Shown: positions 57,787 to 63,253 of the stretch, one piece after another | Layout: each line of letters begins with the position of its first letter | How positions within the stretch are numbered: position 1 is the stretch's first letter | Source: Paenibacillus borealis | GTDB lineage: Bacteria; Bacillota; Bacilli; Paenibacillales; Paenibacillaceae | Direction: 5' to 3' | Length of the DNA stretch: 64,000 nt | Assembly: GCF_000758665.1 (NCBI RefSeq) | Contig: NZ_CP009285.1 | Coordinates: 5,208,001 to 5,272,000, forward strand | Made by a program: the position numbers and the translations under genes | The notes under the pieces: generated by a model | Database searches by the model: none | What the model saw: the letters and a program-made list of their open reading frames with translations, nothing else | Told to the model about the DNA's origin: nothing

Positions 57787-58293
57787 TTAAGAGTTTCCGT
57801 ATTCCAATGCCTTCTTCACGTAGCTATCACTGGTGCGCGCCATCCTCAGCAGATCCTGTTGCGTCAACTCACGGATCACTTTGGCCGGGGTGCCCAAGGA
57901 GAGCGTGTACGGCGGAATGATTTTGTTTTCGGTTACAATGGAGCCGGCTCCTATTAAAGCATATTCACCAATCTCTGCTCCGTTCAATACAATTGCTCCC
58001 ATTCCGATTAATGTGCCTTTGCCTATCCGGCAGCCGTGGATAATCGCTGAATGGCCGACTGATATATCATCTCCCAGAATCAGCGGTAAACCCTCCGCCA
58101 CATGACCCACTGTTCCATCTTGAATATTGCAGCGCTCTCCGATAATTACCGGAGCCAAATCTCCTCTGAGCACGGCATTGAACCAGACGCTGGACTGTTT
58201 CCCCATTCTTACATCGCCCACCAGCTTAGCGCCTTCCGCCACATAGACTGATTCATCAAGCTGCGGTATGTAACTCCCATAAGCAATCCGCAT
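57787..58293 (-). CDS. Gamma-carbonic anhydrase-like hexapeptide protein
   Basis: A 168-residue left-handed beta-helix protein (PaaY/YrdA type). The hexapeptide repeats carry metal-binding His residues in DISVGHSAIIHGCRIGKGTL (about residues 74-93), and an earlier GERCNIQDGTVGHVAEG. A C-terminal helix closes the structure. Related proteins are zinc- or iron-dependent carbonic anhydrases, though many have no shown activity. It starts 11 bases after the 58305 gene, probably in one transcript, with GGGGGAGAGCG before the ATG. Confidence 0.9.
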   Translation of the reverse strand: MRIAYGSYIPQLDESVYVAEGAKLVGDVRMGKQSSVWFNAVLRGDLAPVIIGERCNIQDGTVGHVAEGLPLILGDDISVGHSAIIHGCRIGKGTLIGMGAIVLNGAEIGEYALIGAGSIVTENKIIPPYTLSLGTPAKVIRELTQQDLLRMARTSDSYVKKALEYGNS

Positions 58294-60825: not shown

Positions 60826-61413
60826 TTACACCCTCTCAGCCTGCTCATCTAATTCAGGCTCATAGAAATAGGATTCGAGCTGGAGCTTCACACTGCTCCT
60901 GGCACGGAACAATAGTGATTTCACGGAGCTGACACTCTGATCCAGAATCACTGCAATTTCCTGGTAATCCATCTGATCATATTCACGCAGAATCAGCGCA
61001 GAACGCTGCTTCTCCGGGAGATTGTTAATGGCTTCACGGACCAGATTCATCCGTTCTTTACGTAATGCCGCCTGTTCCGGGGCAACGTCAAGCGGTGCCA
61101 CAGGAGTATATCCGCTCTCTTCAAGCGACACATTGCCGGCACGGTTCTTGCGCAGCTCACTAAGCACCGTATTACGGGCAATAGTGTACAGCCATGTAGA
61201 AAAAGAAGCATCCACTTCACGGAACGAATGAAGACTCCGGAAAGCCTTGTAGAAGGTCTCCGAACAGAGGTCTTCGGCAATCAGCTCCATATGGGAATTC
61301 TTAAGCATGTGATACACGAACGCCAGTATCTTGCGCTGATAACGTCGCATCAATTCCGAGTATAATTCTGTATCTCCTTGCTTGATAAGCTGGATCAACT
61401 GGGAATCCGTCAT
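60826..61413 (-). CDS. ECF-type RNA polymerase sigma factor
   Basis: A 195-residue sigma-70 factor of the extracytoplasmic function group. Region 2 is clear (YSELMRRYQRKILAFVYHML; AEDLCSETFYKAFRSLHSFR; FSTWLYTIARN, about residues 18-90), as is region 4 (LPEKQRSALILREYDQMDYQ; ILDQSVSSVKSLLFRARS, about 130-178). The ATG at 61413 was chosen at the family start (MTDSQLIQLIKQGDTE); GGAGGG lies 11 bases before it, a little far. The next gene is its likely anti-sigma factor. The regulon is unknown; the outside part of the anti-sigma suggests an envelope signal. Confidence 0.92.
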   Translation of the reverse strand: MTDSQLIQLIKQGDTELYSELMRRYQRKILAFVYHMLKNSHMELIAEDLCSETFYKAFRSLHSFREVDASFSTWLYTIARNTVLSELRKNRAGNVSLEESGYTPVAPLDVAPEQAALRKERMNLVREAINNLPEKQRSALILREYDQMDYQEIAVILDQSVSSVKSLLFRARSSVKLQLESYFYEPELDEQAERV

Positions 61414-61778
61414 GGTGAGTTCGGCCCTCCTCGCCCTTGCACGTTTAATCCCGTCCGGTCCGTATCTACTTATACCGGTCAGGTAAGAAAAAGTTGCGGC
61501 ATTGCTACAAATTTGCACGATTAAATGAAATACTTCCTATGTATATTCAACCAGCCGTTAAATAAGGCATACTGTATGTAAATACAGAAAGAAATTCGTA
61601 CCTTTACAATTTCCCAATAATCTTCAGATAGGCAAACGGCTTCCTAATACCTGGAAGAAATCTATAAACATACTTAACCCAGTATAGCATACATTCTAAC
61701 AGGATGACATTAATAGACTTACAGATTCCAGCACAAGTCGAATTTTGAAAGCGGTGTTATTAATGTTTGATAAAGGGG
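61414..61778. other. Upstream region of the sigma gene, no gene seen
   Basis: This part of the 690-bp gap is AT-rich and shows no credible gene. A weak ECF-type promoter (see 61471-61497) is the only signal that I support. Confidence 0.55.
61471..61497 (-). promoter_or_regulatory. Possible ECF-type promoter of the sigma gene
   Basis: On the minus strand GCAAC (61493-61497) precedes CGGTATA (61471-61477) at about 16 bases, similar to the AAC and CGT-type elements of ECF promoters. This would allow the factor to activate its own gene. Confidence 0.35.
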
Positions 61779-61807
61779 TTGACAGAATGTAACCGTATAC
61801 ATATAAT
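61779..61807 (+). promoter_or_regulatory. Consensus sigma-A promoter with internal cre box
   Basis: TTGACA (61779-61784) and TATAAT (61802-61807) are both exact consensus hexamers with a 17-base spacer. The spacer and one base on each side hold ATGTAACCGTATACAT (61787-61802), which matches the CcpA operator consensus WTGNAANCGNWNNCWW at every defined position. A bound CcpA would cover the promoter and repress it. Confidence 0.85.
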
Positions 61808-61813
61808 AAAAGT

Positions 61814-61906
61814 ACAGTATGGTTTCTCTCCACTCCTATCCAAACACTGCACGGTTCCAATACAATGTGAACTGTAACCGCTTATTATGTAAGCGGTCTT
61901 TTTTTT
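61814..61906 (+). ncRNA. Candidate CcpA-repressed small RNA
   Basis: A transcript from the promoter at 61779-61807 would start near 61814 and end after the terminator ACCGCTTA-TTATG-TAAGCGGT (61877-61897) and its eight T, giving about 93 nucleotides. The 5' half has a 24-base stretch without G and rich in C and U (61823-61846, with CTCTCCACTCCTATCC), able to pair with Shine-Dalgarno sequences; a small hairpin (GTTC with GAAC) comes before the terminator. There is no ribosome site, and an ATG at 61819 only opens a frame that runs through the terminator, so coding is unlikely. Confidence 0.75.
61877..61906 (+). terminator. Intrinsic terminator of the small RNA
   Basis: An 8-bp stem with a 5-base loop, then C and eight T. 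Confidence 0.9.
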
Positions 61907-62104: not shown

Positions 62105-63199
62105 CTACACATATACCGTATAATCATTCTGCTGCAGCACAACCTTGGCCCGCTCCATATCATGCTCCTGGCGGAAGGACAAGCGCATAATCCCGGGAAC
62201 ATCCTCCCGGCTCTCTATAATCTGCACGTTGCTAAGATTGATGCCCTGGTCGCCAAGCTCCGTTGTGATGCGTCCGATAATCCCGGGATGATCGGGAACA
62301 TCAATATGAAGGTCGAACAGCGGGACAATCATTCCTTTGCGGCGTTCAGGCAGCTGGCTGCGGAATTCATTCGCCTCATGGAAAGCCGACTCGATCCCTG
62401 CACCATCCCCCTGCTCCAGCAGATGGATGAACGAAGAGACCTCATCACTCCAGTCTTTGAGCAGACGCAGCATGACCGAGCGGTTATTCAGCAGGATATC
62501 ACGCCAGATGATCGGATCACTTGAGGCAATCCGCGTAATATCCCGGAACCCTCCGGCCGCCAGTGTGCTGTACAAAGAATCTGAATCATGGTAGGCATGA
62601 ATCTGGTTGACCAGCGCCACCGCTATAATATGCGGCAGGTGGCTGATCGCTCCGACAATCTCATCATGGCGCTCCGGGTCAAGCCGGACAATATGCGCTC
62701 TGGTATGTAGAAGCAAAGATTCCAGTGCATGATAAGCTTCCTCCGGAACTCCGGGCGGAGGCGTCAGCACATAATAGGCATTCTCGAACAGCAAGGAGGA
62801 GGCTGCCTCAACGCCTGAACGCTCCGAGCCGGCCATGGGATGGCCGCCGATGAAATGCACACCGGGAAGGTCAAGCGAAGCTGCGCAGGCCGCTATGCTG
62901 GCCTTGGTGCTGCCGACGTCGGTGATAATACAGCCCGGCTTCAGCGGCAGCCGGCTTAGCTGCTGAAGATAATCCTCTATCATGCCTACAGGCACACACA
63001 GAAAAATATAATCGGCGCCCAGCGCCGCTTCCTCAAGGGATAGTGTAGCCTCGTCGACTACACCTCTGCTGACATATTTGATTGCTGATTCAGGACGGTG
63101 GGCATGTCCTACAACGGTCAGGCCCTCCTTGCCTTTGAAGCAAAGGGCCAGTGAGCCGCCGATCAGACCGACACCGAAAATTGCTATTTTTGTCGTCAT
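62105..63199 (-). CDS. tyrA: Prephenate dehydrogenase
   Basis: TyrA (364 residues) oxidises and decarboxylates prephenate to hydroxyphenylpyruvate for tyrosine. The N-terminal NAD domain has IAIFGVGLIGGSLALCFKGK (about residues 4-23); the middle has VHFIGGHPMAGSERSGVEAA and the helical dimer region. A C-terminal ACT domain (about 290-360; DLHIDVPDHPGIIGRITTEL) is the likely site of feedback control by tyrosine. The ATG at 63199 is at the family start; a TTG twelve codons earlier has no better ribosome site. It follows hisC, an order common in Bacillales (hisC-tyrA-aroE). Confidence 0.95.
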   Translation of the reverse strand: MTTKIAIFGVGLIGGSLALCFKGKEGLTVVGHAHRPESAIKYVSRGVVDEATLSLEEAALGADYIFLCVPVGMIEDYLQQLSRLPLKPGCIITDVGSTKASIAACAASLDLPGVHFIGGHPMAGSERSGVEAASSLLFENAYYVLTPPPGVPEEAYHALESLLLHTRAHIVRLDPERHDEIVGAISHLPHIIAVALVNQIHAYHDSDSLYSTLAAGGFRDITRIASSDPIIWRDILLNNRSVMLRLLKDWSDEVSSFIHLLEQGDGAGIESAFHEANEFRSQLPERRKGMIVPLFDLHIDVPDHPGIIGRITTELGDQGINLSNVQIIESREDVPGIMRLSFRQEHDMERAKVVLQQNDYTVYV

Positions 63200-63253
63200 G
63201 TTCTTAGAACTACCTGCCTTCTGTGATATCGTCAATCCCGCTTCTGATTCAGG

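Follow-up and report, generated by a model that had tools for sequence, protein, structure and literature searches.

Here we report a small RNA (sRNA) gene in the genome of Paenibacillus borealis that is, with high probability, real, and that adds a new family to an already known kind of sRNA. Comparison between genomes shows the gene, the structure of its transcription unit, a conserved 5' arm and a conserved binding site (cre) for CcpA; its transcription, its repression by CcpA, its base pairing and its targets are what we infer from these sequences. We consider it quite probable that the sRNA is a stand-alone, trans-acting regulator that is repressed by CcpA and uses its C/U-rich 5' arm for pairing at ribosome-binding sites. 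The window, which is the whole 64-kb stretch of DNA that was analysed, contains the following features around the gene:

60826..61518, minus strand: neighbouring gene for an ECF-type sigma factor (Pfam Sigma70_r2 and r4)
61779..61807, plus strand: sigma-A-type promoter TTGACA-N17-TATAAT (-35 box TTGACA, 61779-61784; -10 box TATAAT, 61802-61807)
61787..61802, plus strand: predicted cre (CcpA operator) ATGTAACCGTATACAT, in the spacer, with its last position shared with the start of the -10 box
61814..61906, plus strand: sRNA gene, about 92 nt, both ends predicted, with the start inferred about 7 nt past the -10 box
61821..61840, plus strand: near-invariant core GGUUUCUCUCCACUCCUAUC, predicted to be mostly unpaired; proposed pairing arm
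61851..61875, plus strand: variable middle hairpin, predicted to fold
61877..61906, plus strand: intrinsic terminator, a 9-bp stem (61877-61897) followed by C and eight T
62105..63235, minus strand: neighbouring gene for prephenate dehydrogenase (tyrA; Pfam PDH_N/PDH_C/ACT; NCBIfam prephenate dehydrogenase)

The original prediction, which was made from the window alone, had proposed a perfect promoter with a 16-base cre in its spacer and an intrinsic terminator, and all three elements were recovered. The promoter matches at 12/12 positions with a 17-nt spacer and is the single occurrence of TTGACA-N16-18-TATAAT on both strands of the window. The consensus of cre is WTGNAANCGNWNNCAW, to which the site in the spacer is a full match; a second match to the consensus lies on the minus strand near 57923. 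The terminator stem and its T-run close an RNA of about 92 nt. The G-free, C/U-rich stretch is also present, with a length of 26 nt by count (61823-61848) and not the 24 nt that had been claimed, and there is no GGG run within 61814-61906. Because the flanking sigma factor gene and tyrA are both located on the opposite strand, the sRNA stands alone, and the sequence features include its own promoter, its own terminator and a short unit, as expected of a stand-alone sRNA.

Conservation in related genomes had been set beforehand as a test of the prediction. A similarity search with 181 nt, which is the conservation evidence that is free of any motif filter, matched 60/60 related genomes, which cover all 17 of the sampled genera, with a single copy per genome, a result far beyond chance. 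Throughout the order, the promoter is conserved jointly with the cre, the C/U-rich arm and the terminator. The 24-mer TATGGTTTCTCTCCACTCCTATCC of the 5' segment is identical in 58/60 relatives (L059 and L060 differ slightly), and TTGAC is kept in 59/60, the 60th being masked. A strict cre, TGNAANCGNNNNCA, is found upstream of the core in 59/59 readable loci (one of the 60 relatives is masked there), and the longer form WTG...CAW in 58 of these 59.

The core pattern is present in 137/398 genomes sampled from the class Bacilli and in 7/398 genomes sampled from the phylum, with 7/7 of the latter belonging to the window's own family; it was found in 0/382 genomes outside the class. It occurs as a single copy except in one genome of family f32 (G298), which has two core-pattern copies (C1:1017048 and C1:2251218). 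When up to three mismatches were allowed, a core match was obtained in 12/44 genomes without the exact pattern; L238 looks like a chance match, with no terminator found, and the case is weaker for L236 and L242. Among the 80 loci listed of at least 118 stretches, named carriers include Paenibacillus, Cohnella, Brevibacillus, Aneurinibacillus, Ammoniphilus, Shouchella, Halalkalibacter, Fictibacillus, Marinococcus and Thermoactinomyces. The class-wide loci and those of the mismatch scan were gathered by the core motif, so that conservation of the core among them is by construction. The set of 229 distinct loci used below omits duplicates and loci with less than 60 nt upstream or less than 110 nt downstream; the chance-looking match L238 is included in this set.

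The predicted fold of the sRNA is better than that of 200/200 shuffled sequences (z -4.2 and -3.9) and leaves the C/U-rich 5' arm mostly open, with a mean unpaired probability of the core of 0.85 (223 loci). A terminator-like hairpin, identified by a lenient per-sequence rule without shuffled control, is present in 223/229 distinct loci and has 164 different stems among them, which indicates that the unit is kept while the stems turn over; the sequences of the middle hairpin and of the terminator diverge widely among genera. RNAalifold, applied to 43 of the 60 relatives' sequences, recovered only 3 pairs, of which 0 covary, and hairpins of unequal length do not align; the hairpins therefore rest on the folding of individual sequences and not on covariation in this gapped alignment.

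A cre near the sRNA is common beyond the close relatives as well. A strict cre on either strand within -60..+110 of the core is present in 166/229 distinct loci, compared with 16/2290 control windows taken from the same loci, and lies upstream in 146 and downstream in 25 loci; a score of at least 13 against the 16-position consensus is reached in 158/229 loci and 11/974 controls. In Paenibacillales the promoter contains the site; Brevibacillus and several alkaliphilic Bacillaceae have it within the terminator or close by. The loci whose cre-like sites lie inside or close to the terminator stem, in place of a promoter site or in addition to one, are L079-L090, L106, L108, L109, L137, L143 and L192; CcpA bound at such a site could act as a roadblock. 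Several lineages among the 229 loci (Aneurinibacillus-like, Thermoactinomyces-type and others) have no good cre, so control by CcpA is not universal, and the sRNA seems to predate such control or to extend further than it does. In Paenibacillales control by CcpA is likely. A different element occurs in the promoter spacers of L109, L108, L130, L062, L064, L065 and L241, where up to 12 nt of the core recur as their reverse complement; in L241 it measures 7 nt, and the spacer sequence GGGGTGG matches a core that is itself changed. At these loci, an inverted repeat spans promoter and RNA.

This last arrangement, seen in a few lineages whose promoter has no cre and matching the changed core in L241, would favour a role of the core as an operator in the DNA, bound by some unidentified regulator, and not as an RNA pairing arm. 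We consider this very improbable, given that an upstream match of at least 8 nt exists in only 7/229 loci, that a terminator-like hairpin comes next in 223/229 loci, and that a near-invariant site of 20 nt, normally present once per genome, is unusual for an operator. An ATG at 61819 opens a 79-aa frame in the window, is kept in 219/229 distinct loci, and could be the start of a small peptide or belong to a dual-function RNA. Such a role is very unlikely, since only about 5 nt precede the ATG (from the inferred start) and include no Shine-Dalgarno (SD) sequence, the frame has anything between 8 and 134 codons, the ATG is missing from 10 loci, and every codon position of the core is conserved; the earlier statement that no coding gene fits agrees with the variation in frame length and the missing ATGs. 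A cis-acting leader or attenuator for a neighbouring gene would agree with the conserved neighbourhood of the sRNA, but is extremely improbable in view of the terminator at its end, the change of the downstream gene among lineages, and the genes of the window, which lie on the opposite strand on either side, so that nothing downstream would be read from the sRNA promoter.

The sRNA was compared with 4227 Rfam families, and 0 matched (E up to 5 for the window, E up to 10 for 12 diverse loci). Rfam has a model for RsaI under the name RsaOG. FsrA of Bacillus subtilis is controlled by iron (Fur). The model for RsaE/RoxS (RF01820) was found in 0/33 carrier genomes, where the filters can miss weak matches, and in 25/30 genomes chosen as lacking the core (20 above the Rfam cut-off; B. 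subtilis, as control, was positive), a split that may go back to a single exchange in the phylogeny and is hence no proof of functional replacement. One of these 30 genomes (G065) carries a variant core, and RoxS was not found in it. The view that the sRNA does not look like RoxS or FsrA is supported by the absence of matches to RF01820 and to any other Rfam family. The suggestion that it may be undescribed agrees with the Rfam result, and its reach had been underestimated, as it extends to many families of Bacilli and not to Paenibacillus alone. No description or name was found in the literature searched, including the core motif as text, among the matches listed, as judged by title. For P. 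riograndensis, an excerpt of one report describes 27 intergenic small RNAs, of which 3 are annotated and the others are of unknown function (PMC5670726); the sRNA may be among them.

By mode of action, the nearest system appears to be RsaI (RsaOG) of Staphylococcus aureus, which, according to excerpts of two papers, is CcpA-repressed and stand-alone, uses a C-rich region for its mRNA targets, and represses by pairing with SD sequences, including that of a glucose-uptake mRNA (PMC9266662; PMC8216469), much as is proposed for the sRNA. RsaI differs by its two G-rich regions, which are missing in the sRNA with its lack of GGG runs, and is described in the excerpted text as conserved in Staphylococcus and not in Bacilli (PMC8216469). 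RoxS/RsaE resembles the sRNA in its deep conservation and, as far as the excerpt goes, in its C-rich regions, agrees with the role proposed for the sRNA in the SD binding for some targets and the link to central carbon metabolism, and differs in being repressed by Rex (PMC5419742) and in the absence of RF01820 from the 33 carriers. RosA (S345) of B. subtilis is an sRNA whose gene begins with a CcpA site and is repressed by CcpA, as is proposed here; it is about 229 nt long and contains three G-rich regions, and RoxS and FsrA are the RNAs that it binds (excerpt of PMC8216469), whereas the sRNA has a C/U-rich arm and no GGG, and RoxS was not detected in the 33 carriers; the sRNA belongs to neither RoxS nor RosA. 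FsrA shares C-rich regions (PMC8216469, in excerpt); the sRNA differs from it by its cre and by having no Rfam match.

CcpA works with HPr-Ser-P. In the proposed mechanism, CcpA with HPr-Ser-P would occupy the promoter cre when preferred sugars are plentiful and block transcription, and the sRNA would be made when these sugars are gone. Its mostly unpaired arm, GGUUUCUCUCCACUCCUAUC, would then pair with ribosome sites of mRNAs that read like AGGAGUGG(AGAG) and hide them from the ribosome, while the 3' hairpins would stabilise and terminate the sRNA. The sRNA thus probably stops the translation of selected mRNAs once good sugars run out, and blocking of the SD sequence by the arm is our best guess as to how.

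The target prediction with the C-rich arm, which had been suggested as a check, gave leads in single gene families and no clear excess across genomes. The pattern AGGAGTGGAG before ATG showed no clear excess over one scrambled pattern in 40 genomes; hits with a gap of 2-6 numbered 81 among 150 listed of 168 (hand count), compared with 80 for the scrambled pattern. The 54 genes with AGGAGTGGAG-type sites had mixed functions by eye, and no functional enrichment is claimed. A search of 60 genomes for the full complement of 21 nt, in which as many as 3 mismatches were allowed, returned, besides the sRNA gene, only 7 sites, all with 3 mismatches and one of them common to two genomes (G012 and G018), and full complements were dropped as targets in view of this small number. 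Also set aside were carA, a protein-kinase gene and Gfo/Idh-type oxidoreductases (names by eye; sites shared among four genomes), because much of the leader or of an overlapping coding sequence was conserved as well, or because the genomes were too few.

A DoxX-family membrane protein (PF07681) recurs among the genes with such ribosome sites. Homologues at E 1e-30 or better are present in 33/60 relatives, and 30 of 46 matches had their leaders read. Among close orthologues (at least 64% identity, a cut chosen after the data were seen), AGGAGTG is present in 17/17 leaders and AGGAGTGG at the ribosome site in 14/17; these 17 leaders are all different, with a mean upstream identity of 35%. Among distant homologues the values are 1/13 for AGGAGTG and 0/13 for AGGAGTGG. 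As background, AGGAGTGG occurs at 7/783 ribosome sites of mixed genera, 243 of which have AGGAG. In a control family, the sigma gene, 83 leaders have AGGAG followed by varied letters (led by GGT 25, GGC 15 and GTT 13), and a second one, tyrA, is uninformative with AGGAG in 0/53 leaders. The predicted duplex of arm and DoxX leader in the window's genome has -22.2 kcal/mol, and the 17 leaders gave z-scores of -2.1 to -4.7 against shuffled arms, for a gene that was picked out of a screen and orthologues that share ancestry. In G002, G004 and G006, three DoxX-family gene copies lie near each other. For a glucose-type PTS IIA gene (TIGR00830; 27 loci read), AGGAGTGG is present in 11/18 closest and 0/9 more distant homologues, with the cut again chosen after the data were seen; it is absent from the PTS IIA gene of the window's own genome, and the duplex z-scores against shuffled arms are mostly weak. 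Both genes are suggestive target leads, as far as leader sequences can indicate. A further site was seen in two related genomes (L293 and G012:C1:6429744), where GGATAGGAGTGGAGAGA, a perfect 17-nt complement of the arm, lies just before a start codon; in L293 the gene resembles a membrane glycosyltransferase by eye.

The missing genome-wide enrichment of targets leaves some room for another reading, in which the sRNA is under CcpA control and has a different RNA or a protein as its main partner, by sponging or sequestration, and the matches to ribosome sites are incidental. The arm is conserved more strictly than short SD pairing requires, and RosA of B. subtilis offers a CcpA-repressed precedent for a sponge (excerpt of PMC8216469). 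We nevertheless consider this unlikely, since RosA and RsaI use G-rich regions for their partner RNAs (same excerpt) and the sRNA has no GGG, since RoxS, as a partner, was not found in any of the 33 carriers, and since the ribosome site of DoxX is conserved in close orthologues. Pairing of the arm with ribosome sites is therefore retained as the preferred reading.

RoxS has been called the sole trans-acting sRNA, besides 6S RNA, whose conservation spans both B. subtilis and S. aureus (PMC5419742, in excerpt). The sRNA reported here is another deeply conserved candidate and occurs in families in which no RoxS was detected, and the surprise lies in the depth of its conservation and in this split with RoxS. 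It is a likely post-transcriptional sugar regulator for Paenibacillus, Brevibacillus and alkaliphilic bacilli. Its arm is nearly constant and the position of its cre shifts, and the long-term replacement of carbon-control sRNAs becomes testable. As a tentative scenario, which we hold to be possible and rather less than probable, the sRNA would be the ancestral carbon-status sRNA of class Bacilli, retained at one locus on the tyrA/aroA side and largely under CcpA, and would have been lost in the lineage of the model genera, where RoxS/RsaE and its CcpA-controlled partners took over its role. Its loss from the usual model genera, if true, would explain why it went unnoticed.

Among the nearest neighbours of the sRNA at 240 loci, some of them from the same genomes, the largest clusters are tyrA (122), sigma (116) and AroA-like (58, labelled by eye), and the first two contain the window's own two flanking proteins; a single ancestral locus would explain why the clusters are few. 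The surroundings of aroA in the 30 genomes that had been selected for lacking the core yielded one variant with a terminator (L351), and the 1.5-kb flanks of the other 29/30 contained no homologous RNA; variants elsewhere with more than 3 mismatches escape the pattern search, as L351 did. In G219, about 1 Mb separates RoxS from aroA. Compared with many other loci of the Paenibacillales, those of the Paenibacillus subgroup to which the window belongs have the sRNA in the opposite orientation with respect to the sigma and tyrA genes.
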